Positions 311 through 17,248 of a stretch of DNA of 20,843 nt are shown here, piece after piece. The stretch is from a virus: IMG/VR virus record IMGVR_UViG_3300031963_001110, positions 1 to 20,843 of that record, one strand, 5' to 3'. Every line of letters starts with the position of its first letter. Position 1 is the first letter of the stretch. The notes beneath the pieces were generated by a model. The model was not told where the DNA came from. It searched no databases and saw only the letters and a list, made by a program, of their open reading frames with translations. The position numbers and the translations under genes were made by a program.

Positions 311-2602
311 TTAATATGCCCAAGTTGGTTTGGAATCTAGTTCAATATCTCCAAACAATTCAAAATTTGTGACAGCAACATTGCCATTTGAGTTTATATA
401 AATTTGATTTGCCCCCGGCGAAATACCAACTGCAAAAGCACCAAGAGGAGCCGATCTATTAACTGCTGTTAATGCTTGGTTAAAATTTGCAATATTTTTT
501 AAAAATAAATTTGAAATAGTTATTGTAATGTTGCTAACTGAATTAAAAGTAAAAGATGCGTTTATTTTACATCTCCATGTTCCATCTTGCATTTGATATG
601 GAATAAATACACCCCTTATTACGCTAAAACCAGCCGCCGTACTGGATACAGTTAGGGCCAAACCTCCGCTATAATTTCCCCCGTGTAGGTATTGTTTTAA
701 CCCCATCTTGGTAGCTTTTGCGTCTGTGTATGTTGTCGGGTCTGGAAGTCTTTCATCGTCAACAGTACCACTCAAAATAGTGTCAGCATTTACAGTTAGC
801 GGGAAACTTGCGCCAATCGCAGGTGCATTAAGAGCGTAGTTTATGACGCTTGTGCTACCTGAAGATGCTGGCAATGTCACACGAATCATGCCTGTAGTTG
901 TGATATCAACCAAGAAACCAGCCGGAGGTGTGTCACCTGTCGTCTGATAGCTTAGGTTGTAATCACCACCTGCGCCAGACTTGGCGAACTTAGCAGATAC
1001 ATAGAATCTGACAGGTGCAGCACTTGATATAAACACCCAACCAGTCAACTCACCTGCGTCCATTGTGCCAACGTTTTGAACGTTAGTTGTGGCTCCAGAT
1101 GTAAGTGATACCTGTGCTCTAGCATTGGTGCCGCCGACTACTGCGCCACGCTTAGGTGCTACATACATCGTTGTCGCGCTAGATGCTACGCCAATAGGCA
1201 CACTGACTTGGCCTATCGTTGTTGGTTCAGTTGTTACTATTAAGCCAGCCGTTGTGGCAGATAGGAAATAAGCTTCTCCAGGTGTAAGTCCCCAAGCTGT
1301 TTTGGTAACTTCGCCTACCATTGTAATATCAAACTGGGTAGGAGAAGCAGCCGAGATCATGCCAATTACTTCAGCCGTATTGGCTGCGCTCGCTATGGCT
1401 TTTACATACGATGTGCCGTCATAATAAACAACATCACCAATGACAAAGCTATTGGCTGCCACTATTGTAAATACAGTGCCACCGCCGCCGCCACCAATTC
1501 CAGACCATGCCGCGCCTTTGTAGCCTTCAAATGTCCCGCTCTCATTGTTATAGCGTATCATTCCATCAACGCCAGACGGCCTTTCAAGGTTGTCACCGGC
1601 TGGAAGTTGCAGAGCACCAGTGACGGCTGCTGTGCTAGATATTGCTTTATTTAGTAAAGTCTCTGATCCGTTTAATGTTGCCAGCGTGCCAGTTGTCGGC
1701 ATTGTCACCGCTGATGCTGCAGTTGTGGTGATGTTTAAATCAAAGTTACCAGTGCGAGTTAAAGTGGCTGCGTCGTTATTATTTACGCCTGTGCCGCCTT
1801 TTGAAGCTGGTACAATTCCTGTCAGATTTGAAGCTGTGATGTCATCAATTGCGGCAATGTTTTTCTCAGATCCAAGATCGCCGGATGCAAACTTGCTATT
1901 GGCTGACGCCTTATAAATCAAGCTTCCCTTAGTGCCAGTACGGTCAATGGTAAGGCCAGAGCCTTCAGATACGGCATCGTTTCCACCCTTGTTAACAAGG
2001 ATATTTTTATCTTTCACGTCAAGGTTTACAGTATCCACCGTAGTGGTAGTGCCAGATACCGTTAGATTACCTGGGATGCTTACGGTAGACGTAGCACCGC
2101 CCAAGGTCATGGTGTTTGCACCCATGCTTGCGCCAACAGTCAAAGCACCATCGGCTTCGACATCAAGTGCGTTATTTCTAATCTTTGTACCGTCAAGAAA
2201 GCCGTTTTTAACCGTCTTATCTTGAATCTCTTGAGCACCGAGAGTCAGTACAACAGTTGCAGACACGTCTGGGAATGTGTAGGTGCGGTCTACAGTGCTA
2301 TTAAAATCAAGCACGTTATCGGCTCCAGCGGAGCATCCTGTTAAATCAAAGCTAACTGTTTTAGTCGCATCAGCGGCATCTTGCTGCATAATGCCTGTGC
2401 GCCATGACGCGCCAAGATAAAGCCTTGGTGCCTTTAGTGTGCTGCTTAAATAGATAGAGCCTTCAATAACGTCATATTCAGCCGCATAGCCAGCGTCATC
2501 AACAAATACTGGCAAAGTATTGGTAGCTGTCTCAAGGGATAAATCCTCGGGAGCCTCAATATTGACGCCGTTAGCAAATCTAAGTTTTTTTACGGTAGGC
2601 AT
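311..2602 (-). CDS. Tail fibre protein
   Basis: This 763-aa protein has the look of a phage tail fibre: low in Cys, rich in Gly, Thr, Ser, Ala and Asn, and built of short beta repeats. Residues 1-150 form a probable attachment region. Residues 150-310 are a Thr/Gly-rich shaft with the frequent fibre motif PASKGGTG near 265-272. Residues 348-368 carry the common motif RYNNESGTFEGYKGAAW, followed by a six-glycine hinge (370-375). Residues 376-485 look like a further fibre module ending in a VAPKRG-type boundary. The remaining C-terminal part (490-763) is beta-rich and probably the receptor-facing tip. The ATG at 2602 directly follows the hub stop codon and has an AGAGGAG site 8 bases upstream. 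Host-range determination is likely from family knowledge but not shown by the sequence. Confidence 0.85.
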   Translation of the reverse strand: MPTVKKLRFANGVNIEAPEDLSLETATNTLPVFVDDAGYAAEYDVIEGSIYLSSTLKAPRLYLGASWRTGIMQQDAADATKTVSFDLTGCSAGADNVLDFNSTVDRTYTFPDVSATVVLTLGAQEIQDKTVKNGFLDGTKIRNNALDVEADGALTVGASMGANTMTLGGATSTVSIPGNLTVSGTTTTVDTVNLDVKDKNILVNKGGNDAVSEGSGLTIDRTGTKGSLIYKASANSKFASGDLGSEKNIAAIDDITASNLTGIVPASKGGTGVNNNDAATLTRTGNFDLNITTTAASAVTMPTTGTLATLNGSETLLNKAISSTAAVTGALQLPAGDNLERPSGVDGMIRYNNESGTFEGYKGAAWSGIGGGGGGTVFTIVAANSFVIGDVVYYDGTSYVKAIASAANTAEVIGMISAASPTQFDITMVGEVTKTAWGLTPGEAYFLSATTAGLIVTTEPTTIGQVSVPIGVASSATTMYVAPKRGAVVGGTNARAQVSLTSGATTNVQNVGTMDAGELTGWVFISSAAPVRFYVSAKFAKSGAGGDYNLSYQTTGDTPPAGFLVDITTTGMIRVTLPASSGSTSVINYALNAPAIGASFPLTVNADTILSGTVDDERLPDPTTYTDAKATKMGLKQYLHGGNYSGGLALTVSSTAAGFSVIRGVFIPYQMQDGTWRCKINASFTFNSVSNITITISNLFLKNIANFNQALTAVNRSAPLGAFAVGISPGANQIYINSNGNVAVTNFELFGDIELDSKPTWAY

Positions 2603-11271: not shown

Positions 11272-11724
11272 TTAAATTGGCTCTTGATATTCTACCCTTA
11301 AGGTTATCTCTAGGGCAAGATACTTAGACTCTGCCCCTTGGATATAATTAATGCCGCCATCATCCGTGATAACAGCTTTAATGCATTGCCCAGAAAGTGT
11401 TGAATCTGTTTCAAATGCTAATAAAATCTCTCGGTGTGCGTCAATGATATCTTTTTCAACCATAGCCCTGCCAAGTGTGTCATTTTCGGTATTTACCACT
11501 TGAGTGACTAGGCCAATCGTATAATCCCGCTCCCATGTGGCAATGCATCCCACATATCTCTCGGTGTTTGTACCTGGGCCAATGGCTAAACCAAAAGCCT
11601 TGCGCAGCAAAATAGCTGTATTCTCATCAAGTGCATATGGATTGGGTACACGCTGAAAGTTTGGCAGAATAGTCTCTAACTTTGTTACAATGCTGTCGTA
11701 GATGTCTGCAATCTTGGTAGTCAT
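11272..11724 (-). CDS. Probable tail terminator / tail completion protein
   Basis: A 150-aa protein directly before the tail tube gene, where siphoviruses encode the tail terminator (gpU-like) that caps the tube and joins it to the head. It opens with an amphipathic helix (IADIYDSIVTKLETILPNFQ), has beta strands with a central helix (residues 90-110, EKDIIDAHREILLAFETD), and ends in a strand pair (KYLALEITLRVEYQEP). This alpha/beta pattern fits the gpU/gp17-type fold. Its ATG overlaps the preceding gene by four bases (ATGA), indicating translational coupling to the adaptor. The function is inferred from position, size and predicted fold; no diagnostic motif is present. Confidence 0.65.
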   Translation of the reverse strand: MTTKIADIYDSIVTKLETILPNFQRVPNPYALDENTAILLRKAFGLAIGPGTNTERYVGCIATWERDYTIGLVTQVVNTENDTLGRAMVEKDIIDAHREILLAFETDSTLSGQCIKAVITDDGGINYIQGAESKYLALEITLRVEYQEPI

Positions 11725-12536
11725 CTTGTCATAAATCCTGATTTTCTAGTGATTTCATCTACTTCCACATGTCCGTTTTTGTTTACGTCAATGGTATACA
11801 TACGGCTCGCCATTTCTTCATTAAACCTTCTTTTTGCTTCGGCTACATGCTCACGATACGGAGTTCCAAAAGCTTGATAAACAATCTCAGCAACCTTATG
11901 ACAGGCGGCATTTTCAAAGACTGACCAATCCATAATTTGTCCACGATCGACAGCGAAATTGCGCTTTCTAATATCTTTCACAATGGCTTCTGACGCCATG
12001 AAATGTTGCTCTTTCCAGTGTGTTTTTCCGGCTTTGAATCCTGATAATATTTGGGGCTGCATAAGGTCAGGATATATGCTTGATAAAGCTGTGTCATTAC
12101 TGAATTTTTGGCCGATATAAGCAATGCCAGCCGTAAAATCACTAGGCCAGCCAATGCGTAGCCAGTAGCGGTTATATATTTGAAAGCTTGAAAGCCCTAC
12201 GGTTTTGCTTTCTTGTTCGGAGTTCCATCCGCCATCAATATGCAAAGACCAGCTAATACGGCCTGACTCTGTCATTCCATCAGTTTGATCGATGATATCG
12301 ACCACATCATACCAACTGCCATTAAACCAGACCTCTATGATCGGAGCACCTGAACCGCTTGTTGCTGGCGTCGATAGTTCCATCCAGATGTTATTAAACG
12401 GACAATTTGCAGCTATGTATATTTTATTGCCTTCGGTGTAATTTAAAGCGTAAGTGCCAACCCGATAATCACCTACAGCCACGGAGATATCGGTGGTCTC
12501 ATATATTACCCGCTGCGTTACGAGGCTTATTGTCAT
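11721..12536 (-). CDS. Probable head-tail adaptor protein with C-terminal EF-hand loop
   Basis: A 271-aa protein in the connector region. Residues 1-140 are beta-rich with many Trp/Tyr (IEVWFNGSWYDVVDI; NRYWLRIGWPSDF), suggesting a beta-sandwich. Residues 150-245 are helical (SEAIVKDIRKRNFAVDRG; AACHKVAEIVYQAFGTPY; EHVAEAKRRFNEEMASRM), like small connector-ring adaptor proteins. The C-terminus has DVNKNGHVEVDE (residues 250-261), a textbook 12-residue EF-hand calcium loop with acidic or Asn residues at 1, 3, 5, Gly at 6, a hydrophobic residue at 8 and Glu at 12. The start overlaps the stop of the preceding 48-aa gene (ATGA). The adaptor role is inferred from context. Calcium binding is likely from the motif but untested. 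Confidence 0.6.
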   Translation of the reverse strand: MTISLVTQRVIYETTDISVAVGDYRVGTYALNYTEGNKIYIAANCPFNNIWMELSTPATSGSGAPIIEVWFNGSWYDVVDIIDQTDGMTESGRISWSLHIDGGWNSEQESKTVGLSSFQIYNRYWLRIGWPSDFTAGIAYIGQKFSNDTALSSIYPDLMQPQILSGFKAGKTHWKEQHFMASEAIVKDIRKRNFAVDRGQIMDWSVFENAACHKVAEIVYQAFGTPYREHVAEAKRRFNEEMASRMYTIDVNKNGHVEVDEITRKSGFMTR

Positions 12537-12679
12537 ATTCCTGGCCTTTCTATAACTAGCTCAAATTTTTTACGCGCCATATAAAAATCGTTTGGCAATA
12601 TAGTCTCAACGCCCATACGACCAGCAAGTACGCTTACTGGTTTTAAAATAGGAATTAAAAACCTTACAAGCTTGCCCAT
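12533..12679 (-). CDS. Small conserved-context protein, 48 aa
   Basis: This short frame fills an otherwise empty 142-base gap. Its ATG (12677-12679) shares a base with the TAA stop of the upstream 130-aa gene (TAATG), and its TGA (12533-12535) overlaps the next gene's ATG (ATGA). Both junctions are the kinds used throughout this operon, which strongly supports a real gene. The product begins MGKLVRFLIPILKPVSVLAG and continues with a basic C-terminal half ending RKKFELVIERPGI. The N-terminal 20 residues form a short hydrophobic basic stretch that might be an amphipathic or membrane-touching helix. No family is recognised. The position suggests a small neck component or assembly factor. Confidence 0.65.
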   Translation of the reverse strand: MGKLVRFLIPILKPVSVLAGRMGVETILPNDFYMARKKFELVIERPGI

Positions 12680-13071
12680 TATAGGTATTCCCTAATTTTG
12701 TTAATCCATTGGTCAATGCGATCTTGAGTGGCAAAACCACTCGGAGTTTTCTGAGACAAGCGATAAATCGCCGTAGGAAAAGCGCCGTTTCTAAGGCGTA
12801 TCAAAACGTCAAGAAACTCGTCAAACATCTGATCTGATTGCTCCGTCGTTATACCTTCAAGCGTATTGTCTGCTAGTAGGTATTTGATTAACTCGTCAGA
12901 TTTTTTCTGATACTCCTCAAGCTTTCCGGCAATCATTTCTCTTGGAGTCGGTACAATTGGCGGCCTCGTGTAAACAGAAAGTTTTTCCTGCCAAACTTCT
13001 TCCGAGGTATCGTCTGGAAGTTCAAGTTCGCCTATCTTTTGACCCAGATAATTTAATACGTTTCTAATCAT
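12679..13071 (-). CDS. Hypothetical virion or assembly protein, 130 aa
   Basis: A mostly helical 130-aa protein between the glycine-rich fibre and the adaptor. It begins MIRNVLNYLGQKIGELELPD, with a SEEVWQEKLSVY helix, then a charged helical middle (residues 45-85), and ends DQWINKIREYL. A GAGG site lies between the fibre TGA and this ATG. Its own TAA overlaps the following 48-aa gene (TAATG). A helical protein next to a fibre gene could be a fibre assembly chaperone or a connector-associated protein. Neither can be shown from sequence, and I do not recognise the family. Confidence 0.7.
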   Translation of the reverse strand: MIRNVLNYLGQKIGELELPDDTSEEVWQEKLSVYTRPPIVPTPREMIAGKLEEYQKKSDELIKYLLADNTLEGITTEQSDQMFDEFLDVLIRLRNGAFPTAIYRLSQKTPSGFATQDRIDQWINKIREYL

Positions 13072-13078
13072 GTCGACC

Positions 13079-14923
13079 TCACAAGTTTGCTACGCATGAT
13101 CCACCGTTACCACCAGCCCCGCCCGTTGTTCCAGACCCGGACGCCCCAGTCGCACCTGCAACACCTATGATTTCAAGGCCAGAGTTGGTCACCACGTTAA
13201 ACAATTGTATTCTGCCGCCTTGACCACCATTTCCACCGTTTCCTCCAACCCCAGTACCGGCTGCGTTACCACCCGTGCTTCCGTTTCCACCGTTTGCCGA
13301 AATAAGACTATTGACCGTCGGGCCAGTTTTTTTAGCGTAAGCTATATAAACATAACCGCCACCGCCGCCTCCAGCACCGCCCGTGCCTCCAACGTTACCT
13401 ACTGTTTGGTTTAAACAAGTTCCGGCATTGCCGCCAAGTACAGTTATTACTCCAGCCGGTGTTGATGGGCCGGTTATAATTTCCGCTGCGTAAATAGCGA
13501 TAACACCGCCGCCTCCTCCACCTCCGGGTGCGCCACGTGACGAGTTAGCACCGTCGCCGCCTCCAGAGTTTCCACCACGACCGCCAGCGCCGCCAGATAT
13601 TGAGGCTGCGCCTCTTAAGAGGTGTTGATCATACCTACCTAAATGCGTTGGACCATTTGCACTGCCGCCTCCACCCGTTCCCACACCAGCTCCAGCTGAT
13701 CCGGCTCCAGACGCTCCAGACCCACCGCCAGCACCACCATTAGAGTTATTAACTGTTCCGGGGGCTGATGATGCCAATCCGGCGCTTGTAGAACCGGCTG
13801 CTCCTGTCGATCCCGCTCCGCCTCCACCAAGTATGACAGCAGCTAAAGAGCTGCCCCCTGCTGCTCCGCCTGTGCTTGATGAGGTTTGGCCAGTATTTCC
13901 ATTTCTTAATATTGCTCCAGCCGGCGCATTTGTTAAGTCAAGTGTCCTGCAATAGATTGGGAATCCGCTAGTGTTTATCAGAGCGCCGGGGCCAATTGTG
14001 AGAGTATTGTAGTATGGAATTTGTGACAGAGTTAAAGATCCTGTGACGTTTAGATCTCCGTCGCTGCCGTTACCAAAGTATTCAAAAATATTTTCTTCTT
14101 CCCAAGAAGGTATTCCAGACATTACACGCAAAATGTCTGACTCATTTCCTATTGGTAATCGAGCAAGGCTTGTTCCGTTATTGTAAATCAAGTCACCAGT
14201 TGTTGTGGTTGGATCTAGTATTGCAGCGTCAAGTTGTGCTTGAATGTTAGAAGTTGCGCCATTTAAATATTGAAATTCAGTATTTGAAACTGAACCGTCT
14301 GCTATCTTAGCAGCGTCAACACCAGAAGCTATGTTGGTATTGTCAACAGACCCAGCTGTGTCATCAATCTTGCTATCTATTTGAGATTGAATATCAGAAG
14401 TAACTGATGACAAGAAACCTAGTTGAGTGTCACCAACGCTCGATGTTGTAGCTTTACCGCTGCCATCCGTTGTCATTACTTTGTTTGGTGTAAGTGCTGC
14501 CATTTTGCTGTGGGCAATATTTGCAGAGCCATTAATTTCTGCGTTGTTAATTGAGTTTGTGAGGTTTAGTTTTGTGTGAGAAATAGCGGCCGTACCCGAT
14601 ATATCAGTGTTTGTAATAGTTCCTGGATTAATCGTAGCAGTGACTGTTCCTAGCGCGTCGTCGTATGTTAAAGTAATTTTCGTACCGGCAATCATCATAG
14701 ATCCAGCGGCATCTTGTGCTCTCTCGATTGAAAAATAGAGGTTACTCGTACCTTCTGGTAGGTCATCAGTTGACGACAAAGCCGATCCTGTTGAGAATTG
14801 AAACTCAACTCCAGCATCATTTTTTAAATAAAGTTTGTTGTCTGTTTTTGGATATATACTAATAAACCCAGACGGCGGAGTTGTGCCAGCGCTACCTGTT
14901 TCAAGTTCAAGAATTGATGCCAT
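13079..14923 (-). CDS. Fibre-like structural protein with glycine-rich C-terminal domain
   Basis: A 614-aa protein encoded in the head-neck region. Residues 1-75 contain the phage fibre motif DLPEGTSNLYFSIERAQ (54-70). Residues 103-141 and 166-233 hold short degenerate repeats common in phage fibres. Residues 240-345 are a beta-rich bridge. Residues 352-609 are extremely rich in Gly, Ser, Ala and Asn, with runs of up to seven glycines (467-473), broken by hydrophobic strands such as VIAIYAAEIITG, YVYIAYAKKTG and RIQLFNVVTNSG. That layout suits a beta-helix or a packed polyglycine-II domain as in the tip of some phage adhesins. Its ATG overlaps the preceding stop (TAATG). Placement among head-neck genes suggests a capsid or neck fibre, though a tail fibre is possible. 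Confidence 0.75.
   Translation of the reverse strand: MASILELETGSAGTTPPSGFISIYPKTDNKLYLKNDAGVEFQFSTGSALSSTDDLPEGTSNLYFSIERAQDAAGSMMIAGTKITLTYDDALGTVTATINPGTITNTDISGTAAISHTKLNLTNSINNAEINGSANIAHSKMAALTPNKVMTTDGSGKATTSSVGDTQLGFLSSVTSDIQSQIDSKIDDTAGSVDNTNIASGVDAAKIADGSVSNTEFQYLNGATSNIQAQLDAAILDPTTTTGDLIYNNGTSLARLPIGNESDILRVMSGIPSWEEENIFEYFGNGSDGDLNVTGSLTLSQIPYYNTLTIGPGALINTSGFPIYCRTLDLTNAPAGAILRNGNTGQTSSSTGGAAGGSSLAAVILGGGGAGSTGAAGSTSAGLASSAPGTVNNSNGGAGGGSGASGAGSAGAGVGTGGGGSANGPTHLGRYDQHLLRGAASISGGAGGRGGNSGGGDGANSSRGAPGGGGGGGVIAIYAAEIITGPSTPAGVITVLGGNAGTCLNQTVGNVGGTGGAGGGGGGYVYIAYAKKTGPTVNSLISANGGNGSTGGNAAGTGVGGNGGNGGQGGRIQLFNVVTNSGLEIIGVAGATGASGSGTTGGAGGNGGSCVANL
13097..13870 (-). repeat. Glycine-rich repeat domain (residues 352-609)
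   Basis: About 258 residues dominated by Gly with Ser, Ala, Asn and Thr. At least three units repeat the order glycine run, hydrophobic strand of 6-8 residues, turn, second strand, then (A/L)-x-GGN-type glycine segment. The units lie roughly at residues 464-500, 513-548 and 562-598. At the DNA level the plus strand shows recurrent ccgcc/ccacc runs from the glycine codons. The codons vary between copies, so this is an old protein repeat and not a recent DNA expansion. Confidence 0.75.
14225..14428 (-). repeat. Fibre repeat pair (QLGFLSSVTSDIQSQID type)
   Basis: Two copies of a short motif about 50 residues apart in the 614-aa protein: TQLGFLSSVTSDIQSQIDSK at residues 166-185 and TEFQYLNGATSNIQAQLDA at 215-233. 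The motif is widespread in phage tail and head fibres. It probably forms short helical turns within a trimeric shaft. Confidence 0.6.
14501..14617 (-). repeat. Fibre repeat pair (DISGTAAISHTKL type)
   Basis: Two adjacent copies of a 20-residue motif in the 614-aa protein: TITNTDISGTAAISHTKLNL and SINNAEINGSANIAHSKMAA. The shared pattern is (D/E)I-x-G-(T/S)-A-x-I-(S/A)-H-(T/S)-K. It fits a repeating shaft element. Confidence 0.6.
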
Positions 14924-15129
14924 TATATATACTCCCCAACTGATCCAGCTTTGAGCGTCATGGATTTGTTCAATGTTCCGTCTGTTATTTTAAGTGCTGC
15001 GCCGTCATATATTATAACCTTAGCTCCATCTTCAACAATCATTTTCTCTCGGATGATATGCTTATATGACTCGTCAACTGTCGTCGTCGTTTGCGTGTCG
15101 CAACTCGTCGTAGACCCTATAACCGGCAT
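14923..15129 (-). CDS. Small beta-repeat protein upstream of the fibre, 68 aa
   Basis: A 68-aa protein joined by TAATG overlaps to both the preceding 127-aa gene and the following 614-aa fibre-like gene, so all three are probably translated together. Residues 30-55 read VEDGAKVIIYDGAALKITDG, a repeating hydrophobic/Asp-Gly pattern typical of a small beta-solenoid. The N-terminal 20 residues are Thr-rich (STTSCDTQTTTTVDE). No signal or membrane segment is evident. Its tight coupling suggests a capsid-decoration or fibre-anchor function. This is inference; the family is not recognised. Confidence 0.7.
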   Translation of the reverse strand: MPVIGSTTSCDTQTTTTVDESYKHIIREKMIVEDGAKVIIYDGAALKITDGTLNKSMTLKAGSVGEYI

Positions 15130-15512
15130 TATGAAATCTCCTCAACTGCGACGACGATGCTACCAGCCTGAGATTTTGCGTAAACAATGATAGCATCTGT
15201 TAAATCCCAGAACCTCTCGCCACGAGCCGGAACCTCAACGCCTACATATCCAATCGCAGAGTTATCATAGTTTACTTTTAATTTAATTGTAGAGCTTTGG
15301 TTTTGAATTGCTAGGCCGTTTCTTCCAGATAACGGAACTGCTGGAAGTGGCCACCACTGCGCATCGTCTATCGTCATCTCGGTTATGCGCCCACCATTTT
15401 TTAGACCTGACGGCCTAATTTCGCCAGTAACGGTGGTTCTTACGGCAACCTCACCGTTGAGTTCCTCAAACTTTTGAAACTCGCGGTCGTTTAACGTTGG
15501 AGGTAATGACAT
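15129..15512 (-). CDS. Probable virion structural protein, 127 aa
   Basis: A 127-aa beta-rich protein. The C-terminal half (KLKVNYDNSAIGYVGVEVPA; GERFWDLTDAIIVYAKSQAG; SIVVAVEEIS) resembles small phage structural proteins made of one compact beta-sandwich, in which a YDNS..GYVG..VP..GERF pattern is common. The ATG is preceded by AAGGAT and lies inside the end of the 77-aa gene (47-base overlap in another frame). The TAA overlaps the next ATG (TAATG). Position behind the major capsid protein suggests a head decoration or fibre-anchoring role. The family resemblance is from memory and the function is unproven. Confidence 0.72.
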   Translation of the reverse strand: MSLPPTLNDREFQKFEELNGEVAVRTTVTGEIRPSGLKNGGRITEMTIDDAQWWPLPAVPLSGRNGLAIQNQSSTIKLKVNYDNSAIGYVGVEVPARGERFWDLTDAIIVYAKSQAGSIVVAVEEIS

Positions 15513-15755: not shown

Positions 15756-16616
15756 TTAAGCAGCTGTAACTTTAATACATTTTTTAGCACCTTCGATGCC
15801 AAGAGCAACGCCGAAAATCAAATCAACTGACATCAGAATTCCATGCTTTCCAGCAGGATGGAGATCAGAGATTTTCACTGCCATTTCTTTTGCCATAACC
15901 ATTAGCAATGCGTCTGGGCAAAGGAAAAATGCGGTGTCTTCTGCCAAGCTGTTGTCCTCAGCAATTTGCCAGCCGTAACGACGAAGGCCAAGTTTCCCGC
16001 CAATGACAGGAGTATCAGACGCGCCAAAGTCAGAGCTCACAAGAGTTTGAGAAGCAAGCACGTCGCTATAGTAGGAAGGATCAAGAAGACCAAACCAGCC
16101 TTTTGACATATCCCATTTTGCTTGGGCAGCAAGTTTACGGACAGCTAGAAGCTGTGTGCTGTTCATATCGGTGACGCCATTGATAACGTGATCAGGAGCA
16201 GCAGCCGATGGAACAAGCGCAGCGTAAAGAGCTGTGTTGACAGCCTTCTCAACTGCAAAAACCAAGGAAGCCATAACTTCTGGATTTTGGCGATCGATCA
16301 AAGACATCAGCTCAACTTCGTCAGCAAATTCAAAAGCAGCTGTGACATGCTTGTCAGCTTTTACGTCAACATAGCTTGTAGAAATTGCAGACGGAGCAAA
16401 TGTATTGCTGTCTACTGTGCCAACTGTTTTAGTTGTAGCTGATGGAGCCGCTACGGAGTAAACACGTACAGTGTCCCCACCCTTGCGGATTTCACCAGAG
16501 TAATCCTTGTTTACAATGCTTCCAAGCAAGAGGCTTTCGCGTAGTTGTTTGGTTGCTACTGGAGACCAGTATTTTTGCACCTGTGCTGCAATGTCTGTTA
16601 AGTTTGTACTTGCCAT
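15756..16616 (-). CDS. Major capsid protein (P22 coat-like, HK97 fold)
   Basis: A 286-aa coat protein. The N-terminus (MASTNLTDIAAQVQKYWSPV) and the following ESLLLGSIVNKDYSGEIRKG (27-46) match the N-terminal region of P22-coat-like proteins, and the rest shows alternating beta segments and helices expected of the HK97 fold. The frame is open upstream for 35 more codons, but those overlap the scaffold gene and lack a good binding site. ATG 16614-16616 has a perfect AAGGAG with 7-base spacing, so it is chosen. The gene follows the scaffold and precedes a strong terminator, as expected for the most highly expressed head gene. With no protease gene visible, cleavage of the coat is not expected. 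Confidence 0.88.
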   Translation of the reverse strand: MASTNLTDIAAQVQKYWSPVATKQLRESLLLGSIVNKDYSGEIRKGGDTVRVYSVAAPSATTKTVGTVDSNTFAPSAISTSYVDVKADKHVTAAFEFADEVELMSLIDRQNPEVMASLVFAVEKAVNTALYAALVPSAAAPDHVINGVTDMNSTQLLAVRKLAAQAKWDMSKGWFGLLDPSYYSDVLASQTLVSSDFGASDTPVIGGKLGLRRYGWQIAEDNSLAEDTAFFLCPDALLMVMAKEMAVKISDLHPAGKHGILMSVDLIFGVALGIEGAKKCIKVTAA

Positions 16617-16651
16617 TTTTTCACTCCTTGAAAGTTTGGCTTTAGTTAAAT

Positions 16652-17248
16652 TTATTGCCCCCAGATTATCTGATCCCGCCTCCATTTGTTCATTTCGGCA
16701 GAATTTTTGAGAGTCTTCCACTCTGATTCAGTGATTTTACCTGGGCCACCATTCAAGCCTTGGGGAGCTTGTGCTGGAAACTTGGTAACTCTCTGCACCA
16801 TTTCTGGCCATTGCCTTTTGAGTGACTCAGCCACTCGAGCAACGGTCATCTTGTCGATCTCTCCAGTTTCTGGATTGACTGCTACCTCATCGGTATCAAT
16901 CAGTTTAAACCATTTCTGGTCAACCTGGCCTCCCAGAGCTTCGATCACTGAAGTCAACTTCATGCCACGGGTGATGCGCTCGTCCAACTCCTGTCGTTGA
17001 GCACGTTCCCTAGCTAGTTCCTCTTCCCGAGCCTTAAGCAGAGCTTCATAGTCACCGCGCTTCCTTGCGTCAGTTTCTTCGCGCTCCTTTTCCTTGGCTA
17101 AAAAAGTCTCAAGTTGTGCTTGCAGTTTCTTTTTTTCGTCCAAGAGCTTTCGGTGTGTCTCGTAAGCGATTGTTGACTTAGCTTCTTGATTCTCTGGTTG
17201 CGCCACAGGCTCCCCAGATTGCTCCACAGGAGCTTTCTGATCGGTCAT
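16652..17248 (-). CDS. Capsid scaffolding protein
   Basis: A 198-aa protein just upstream of the major capsid gene. Residues 1-30 are acidic and Pro/Gln-rich. Residues 30-95 are a strongly charged coiled coil (Glu, Lys, Arg, Leu). Residues 100-150 are a mixed region. Residues 172-195 (ITESEWKTLKNSAEMNKWRR) form a basic, Trp-containing amphipathic end like the coat-binding tails of known scaffolds. It probably lines the inside of the procapsid and leaves on packaging. A promoter lies immediately upstream at 17280-17307. An AAGGATGGTGA site precedes the ATG. No protease motif is present, so it is a plain scaffold and not a fused protease-scaffold. Confidence 0.85.
   Translation of the reverse strand: MTDQKAPVEQSGEPVAQPENQEAKSTIAYETHRKLLDEKKKLQAQLETFLAKEKEREETDARKRGDYEALLKAREEELARERAQRQELDERITRGMKLTSVIEALGGQVDQKWFKLIDTDEVAVNPETGEIDKMTVARVAESLKRQWPEMVQRVTKFPAQAPQGLNGGPGKITESEWKTLKNSAEMNKWRRDQIIWGQ

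Follow-up and report, generated by a model that had tools for sequence, protein, structure and literature searches.

Head, neck and tail fibres in described viruses

The gp38 adhesins of T-even phages are glycine-rich, hypervariable host-binding tips, and that of phage S16 is a polyglycine-II sandwich. Fibres on the capsid of phage 7-7-1 hold the flagellum before the surface receptors are engaged. The head spike of RcGTA is composed of a jelly-roll base, held by an N-terminal arm and bearing a flexible adhesive fibre (PMC7296036). The neck fibre of Anabaena phage A-1(L) is a three-gene product, with gp82, gp81 and gp80 operating as anchor, bead and tip, respectively; its genes lie far from the other structural genes of the phage, and its tip module did not bind the tested host (PMC10966104). 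Neck fibres may also be optional, as the NPS of lactococcal phages, present in 73 of 113 phages of the 936 group (PMC6669499); in TP901-1 the gene of this neck fibre lies behind the baseplate genes. The gene positions in TP901-1 and A-1(L) therefore make gene order indecisive for the location of a fibre. As far as tail fibres are concerned, the host range of Hafunaviridae is reported to be determined by a tail-fibre adhesin gene (PMC8651126; see also PMC9229481), and the baseplate tail fibre gp24 of Pam3, characterized by a glycine-rich distal domain, is adjoined by its chaperone gp25, which combines a variable N-terminal with a conserved C-terminal domain (PMC9608196).

The locus described here would encode an adhesin fibre that can be exchanged and has attachment and chaperone proteins of its own; it is probably carried on the head or neck, the location being read from gene order, and we assign this reading a probability of roughly 55%. 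Its nearest precedents, in terms of how they work, are the RcGTA spikes, the 7-7-1 capsid fibres, the HFTV1 turrets and the neck fibres of A-1(L) and of lactococcal phages. In particular, the RcGTA spike resembles the proposed 127-aa base and fibre in its operation and with no sequence match, and it attaches as a pentamer at capsid vertices. The neck fibres of A-1(L), which are multi-part, and of lactococcal phages, which are optional, have a carbohydrate-binding end and are like the module in these traits; no search relates the A-1(L), 936 or TP901-1 fibres to it, and in A-1(L) and TP901-1 the fibre genes are placed elsewhere than between capsid and neck. The tip is glycine-rich like T-even gp38, with neither a match to Pfam GP38 nor, for its model, a fold match in the PDB (the sensitivity of Foldseek to polyglycine-II being uncalibrated). 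Similarly, the Pam3 pair is like the 614-aa and 130-aa proteins in its glycine-rich distal domain, its adjacency and its two-domain chaperone, and matches them neither in sequence nor in fold.

Gene order and coupling of the locus

The window, that is, the whole stretch of 20,843 nucleotides that was analysed, is a viral record of IMG/VR in which the minus strand encodes the structural genes. The order, in which some labels are positional, is terminase, portal, Neck1-like, scaffold, capsid, 77-aa, 127-aa, 68-aa, 614-aa, 130-aa and 48-aa genes, followed by the 271-aa and 150-aa genes, the tail tube, the tape measure, the tail-tip genes and a last 763-aa fibre. The major capsid protein (15759-16616, minus strand; PHROG 267 major head protein, E=5.6e-19) represents the left border of what we call the slot. 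Its reading frame was listed as 15756-16721 from a GTG (321 aa); relatives and a good Shine-Dalgarno sequence (AAGGAG) favour the ATG at 16616 (286 aa). The right border is a conserved 271-aa protein (11724-12536, minus strand; A2 alignment), neck or adaptor by position, the start of which is overlapped by the 48-aa frame (12533-12679, minus strand), in turn TAATG-coupled to the 130-aa gene. The tail tube downstream of the locus matches PF18906 (E=1e-12), and the 150-aa gene gives a weak tail-terminator match (E=0.01). The initial annotation had placed the fibre gene between capsid and connector genes: this order holds, with the capsid upstream and the tail tube downstream, whereas the connector label of the 271-aa gene, which has no PHROG family match, is positional only, and a Neck1-like gene precedes the capsid gene.

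The 614-aa frame (13079-14923, minus strand) starts with ATG behind a good Shine-Dalgarno sequence (GGGGAG). TAATG coupling had been claimed for this gene together with the 127-aa and 68-aa genes, and it is indeed found at the 127-68 (CATAATGCC) and 68-614 (TATAATGGC) junctions; a 7-nt gap with no TAATG separates the 614-aa from the 130-aa gene (TGAGGTCGACATG). The 130-aa gene, chaperone-like, is absent from the initial account.

The 614-aa protein and its glycine-rich tip

The frame, a PHROG match and glycine counts bear out the initial description of the 614-aa protein as a fibre-like N-terminal half joined to a glycine-rich C-terminal half. Specifically, residues 1-282 (14078-14923, minus strand) comprise a virion-proximal N-terminal domain and a repeat shaft, in which residues 83-197 match PHROG 16122, 'virion structural protein' (E=7e-7), and residues 10-98 are about 51% identical (E=3e-22) to a separate 295-aa protein in the same slot of a related locus, L040. 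Residues 47-98 match this L040 fibre protein a second time, so the repeats noticed at the outset are real. An 'SKIRF...' N-terminal domain found in slot proteins was considered for the 614-aa N-terminus and rejected, as its profile gives no match; the N-terminus has relatives of its own in L040 and L045.

Residues 283-614 (13082-14077, minus strand) form the tip, supported by family matches, an AlphaFold2 model and a profile match to HRTV-15 gp33. It opens with the motif FG[DN]GSDGD at residue 283, followed by hydrophobic strands with glycine-rich loops between them. The 258-residue glycine-rich stretch reported initially proved genuine, since the richest segment of that length contains 93 glycines, as against a maximum of 75 in 2000 shuffles of the same protein. 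At least 119 viral stretches carry the DNA pattern for the motif, and most of them encode motif, hydrophobic strands and glycine-rich loops alike. In a single-sequence search the 614-aa tip matched 57 of 84 retrieved domains at E<0.1, the best among the matches listed being L136 (E=1e-63). As the 614-aa protein contributes to the 40-sequence tip alignment A7, the A7 score on it (E=7e-61) is high by construction and independent support comes from the single-sequence search. Pfam and NCBIfam hold no model for the domain in the members tested, save one stray NCBIfam match, and 19 of 40 family members match PHROG 13336, of unknown function. The FGDGSDGD domain is thus a widespread viral domain with no Pfam model. 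Against Pfam Gly_rich_2 (PF21722) the 614-aa protein gives no match above the curated cut-off; the L015 slot contains a 313-aa protein that matches Gly_rich_2 and on which A7 is silent.

The AlphaFold model of the tip, built on the 40-sequence alignment, has a pLDDT of 86.3 and a pTM of 0.88, and displays long hydrophobic strands between glycine-rich loops. The structure-database search proposed at the outset was run on this model: Foldseek, of uncalibrated sensitivity to polyglycine folds, matched nothing in the PDB (best E=3.6); its matches to predicted viral proteins were an uncharacterised protein from a phage (TM 0.83) and collagen-like proteins of giant viruses. PDB sequence searches with the 127-aa, 614-aa and 130-aa proteins and the tip family gave nothing convincing, and glycine-rich Obg-type proteins, with weak PDB matches (E 0.02-0.09), were not accepted as tip homologues. 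Being very common, with no Pfam model or solved relative found and yet with a confident fold, the domain recommends itself for structural study and for metagenomic host-range prediction. As a separate observation, the model of residues 270-614 is similar to proteins labelled 'collagen-like' in Orpheovirus and Pandoravirus (E 1e-14 to 1e-12), and on this structural likeness giant viruses may have the domain as well.

Kinship with a tail-fibre adhesin

With the search space set to 10,000, the A7 profile detects HRTV-15 gp33 at E=4e-22. It remained silent on the controls, namely 20 shuffles of gp33, reversed gp33, the reversed 614-aa domain and the Gly_rich_2 protein. A direct pairwise search of the 614-aa protein against gp33 gave no match; the link between the two therefore runs via the family profile. 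By this comparison the 614-aa tip belongs in the FGDGSDGD family together with the Hafunaviridae adhesins, which supports the initial proposal that the fibre is of adhesin type and ends in a glycine-rich tip. The cultured viruses with the motif region are tailed viruses of Halorubrum and Haloarcula, where it is mostly annotated 'putative adhesin', so that the tip family ties bacterial phages to host-range adhesins of archaeal viruses. Control of host range by this domain is published for Hafunaviridae only (PMC8651126). Besides the domain family, shared by profile, the Hafunaviridae adhesin (PMC8651126) has, like the 614-aa tip, a small gene downstream of it and exchange between viruses, the adhesin gene lying in a hypervariable region. 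The two differ in that the Hafunaviridae adhesin is a separate tail-fibre gene of about 335 aa behind baseplate genes, whereas the window's tip is joined to a shaft in one gene between capsid and neck; the Hafunaviridae downstream gene gp34 has no detectable relation to the 130-aa protein.

This kinship bears directly on a different explanation, namely that the locus encodes an ordinary tail (side) fibre whose genes fell between capsid and neck by chance and whose parts are assembled onto the tail or baseplate. The initial annotation had named homology to a tail-tip fibre as speaking against a head or neck location, and in part such homology exists, as HRTV-15 gp33, a tail-fibre adhesin that sets host range, belongs to the tip family: of the relatives whose function has been studied, the one nearest to the tip is encoded behind baseplate genes. 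In the same direction, other FGDGSDG genes are often preceded by large genes with matches to tail or baseplate families, and a fibre gene of cyanophage ACG-2014d with a weakly similar motif directly precedes neck gp13. T4, too, carries fibre and baseplate genes beside its neck genes. The window phage, however, has a tail-end fibre of its own, separate from the module, the 763-aa protein at 311-2602 (minus strand), with a conserved N-terminal part (55-66% identical in four relatives) and a divergent C-terminal part, and the slot retains its place between capsid and neck in relatives and in L136, away from the tail-tip genes. We regard a tail fibre as the less likely reading, and the preferred reading remains that of an adhesin fibre on the head or neck.

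The companion proteins

The 127-aa protein (15132-15512, minus strand) comprises an N-terminal arm with an LNDREFxKF motif (residues ~1-40) and a C-terminal jelly-roll-like domain. A homologue in the same slot of L040 is 52% identical (E=8e-46), and the family alignment contains 11 sequences. The AlphaFold2 model has a pLDDT of 62, with residues 1-40 below 50 and the C-terminal domain at about 70-83; fold matches to cupin or jelly-roll proteins are weak (best E=6e-4). From this layout we infer a base or attachment protein of the fibre, whose LNDREFxKF N-terminus would serve as a docking arm. The 68-aa protein (14926-15129, minus strand), with TAATG on both sides and a short hydrophobic repeat that appears beta-solenoid-like by eye, is a candidate linker or collar; it is 29% identical to a homologue in L040 (E=3e-5), aligns with 56-aa proteins of L005-L019 and matches PHROG 4772, of unknown function, at E=9e-4.

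The 130-aa protein (12682-13071, minus strand) is a two-domain, fibre-associated protein. In a search of 9556 ORFs its N-terminal domain (residues 1-38, 12958-13071) found matches only directly downstream of FGDGSDG genes, in L136 (E=7.5e-9), L171 (E=9.9e-9) and the L085 lineage. The C-terminal domain (residues 39-130, 12682-12957) is found behind other fibre genes (L086, L087, L094, L095) and in L040. No plausible PDB match to a solved chaperone was obtained; by analogy with Pam3, the protein looks like a fibre chaperone.

A jelly-roll-like protein encoded next to the capsid gene, as is the 127-aa product, recalls many capsid protrusion proteins, and the locus could on these grounds be a capsid decoration or stabilising structure devoid of adhesive role. 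Against such a structure stand a dedicated chaperone-like gene and a tip of an adhesin family; besides, many relatives are devoid of the whole block and several have a separate decoration-like gene of about 132 aa. We deem this explanation highly improbable.

The module and its slot in related viruses

In L040, whose capsid is 54% identical to that of the window, the slot retains the window's order: 127-like, 68-like, 614-N-like, glycine-rich tip, 130-like and neck-position genes. The tip is here a separate 375-aa gene (profile E=5e-44), and the match to the 130-aa C-terminal domain is 25% identical (E=1e-6). Since shaft (295 aa) and tip (375 aa) are separate in L040, the 614-aa protein of the window is both joined in one gene. 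The L136 capsid is not among the matches of the capsid searches, and its order is scaffold, capsid, an 89-aa DREYEKF protein, a 122-aa repeat protein, a 252-aa fibre part, a 401-aa FGDGSDG protein, a 156-aa protein with the 130-aa N-terminal domain, neck-position genes, tube and tape measure, these labels being given by eye and order except for the tip and the 130-like domain. The order kept in L040 and the similar layout of L136 agree with the initial association of the 127-aa and 68-aa genes with the fibre. The same two loci led us to reject a locus unique to the window contig.

Capsid searches yielded about 70 loci, with capsid identity from 100% down to 30%. The distance between the capsid and the 271-aa gene, measured with profiles of both proteins, is bimodal: in 16 loci the 271-aa gene lies straight after the capsid region (0.2-0.9 kb), and in 35 it is 1.5-5.3 kb off. 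Once identical capsids are removed, 40 distinct capsid relatives remain, of which 28 show a block of at least 1 kb and 12 lack one. Parsimony counts at least seven gains or losses of the slot, on a tree with few supported branches. The slot stays between capsid and neck for capsids down to about 37% identity; the position noted initially is thus a recurrent one and not the accident of a single contig. Its contents vary, including YadA-stalk proteins, the Gly_rich_2 protein of L015, a homologue of the GP4 fibre gp80 (L025) and many unnamed proteins. The slot itself is thus conserved, and the fibre-like proteins within the block differ between relatives and are exchanged. An LNDREFxKF-type motif opens the first protein in nearly all blocks, and in L063, L065 and L068 this N-terminus is fused to a 400-470-aa protein. 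The anchor motif is found in 30 of 35 slot-bearing loci versus 1 of 16 slotless ones, the single case being a false match and not a motif protein; with only two supported independent pairs, on which the association is not significant, the raw counts are not independent of ancestry.

In many of L024-L068 a decoration-like protein of about 132-140 aa (KKVGAPFSNE...TIGTAALTAGKV...) follows the capsid and ~70-aa genes; it is present in slotless loci as well, and absent from the window's clade.

The optional nature of the block, as in the lactococcal NPS, together with the A-1(L) tip module that did not bind its tested host (PMC10966104), would also fit neck whiskers or collar fibres with a role in assembly or sensing and with no host binding. 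That the tip family contains a host-range adhesin, and that a tip end is common to the window phage and an unrelated one, as expected of receptor binding, speak against such whiskers and render them improbable.

Annotated phages gave no match to the capsid, the 127-aa or 130-aa proteins, the L136 tip or the L136 anchor protein, so that the search turned up no cultured phage that carries this locus. No capsid relatives were found among candidates in bacterial genomes, nor 130-aa relatives among plasmids.

Proposed function of the module

The reading of an adhesin fibre on the head or neck is built on the composition of the module, its conserved position, its presence or absence among relatives, the tip family and the association of tip and putative chaperone, all seen at the sequence level; from these we infer trimerisation, docking site, host binding and order of action. 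In this model, the 127-aa protein would dock to the virion by its conserved N-terminal arm and present its jelly-roll, which the 68-aa protein would extend. The N-terminal half of the 614-aa protein would form the shaft, probably trimeric, and the C-terminal FGDGSDGD domain the host-binding tip, folded with the help of the 130-aa chaperone. Housed in the optional slot between capsid and neck and swapped whole or by its tip, the module might provide a second binding organelle besides the tail-end fibre. If it is indeed borne on the head or neck, this receptor-binding organelle could be changed by cassette exchange, leaving the tail tip untouched. A wider proposal, to which we give slightly less than an even chance, is that an uncultured phage family has, in the space from capsid to neck genes, an adhesin island that is optional and open to exchange; it would equip the head or neck with host-range tips of the tail-fibre type and of unsolved fold, along with a chaperone and a docking protein of their own, as a second, independently evolving host-recognition organelle. 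On the whole, the initial interpretation of the locus is partly supported. The tail-fibre nature of the Hafunaviridae tips counts against a head or neck location, as does a tip end that adjoins the terminase in a podovirus-like phage.

The tip end in a podovirus-like phage

This phage is represented by three contigs from three samples (L083, L084, L085), with a PHROG 156 portal and an interrupted terminase. All three start inside the tip gene, after which come the 130-aa gene, a 127-aa gene distinct from the window's and the terminase. L085 is identical to the window over its first 428 bp, and all 23 differences fall in the next 383 bp, which suggests, at the level of the aligned DNA, a recent exchange of the tip end between the two phages. 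As all three contigs end at the shared tip, the identical stretch is possibly an assembly joint. By sequence, the 130-aa gene of the podovirus-like phage is a real homologue, exchange or assembly joint alike.

Some further features of these genomes were observed. The 763-aa fibre of the window and a 714-aa podovirus-like fibre (L097:2698-4842) end alike (GDIELDSKPTWAY and GDIELESKPTWAY, respectively); a second fibre end common to the two phages suggests a common host. The 828-aa terminase of the podovirus-like phage (L083:990-3476; also L004/L085:1291-3777) carries an intein-like insert (CLAKGTLVATPTGPVEIEK...LANGLVTHNSGKS); residues 46-271 match a PHROG helicase entry, probably via that entry's own intein. 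Directly after the podovirus-like capsid gene lies a gene for a 199-aa endonuclease, GIY-YIG-like by eye (L083:9166-9765). Finally, three tandem proteins of about 540 aa and similar build, at least two of them with the FGDGSDGD tip, are encoded beside a terminase-like gene at L206:6460-11381; this array is a tandem duplication of the adhesin.
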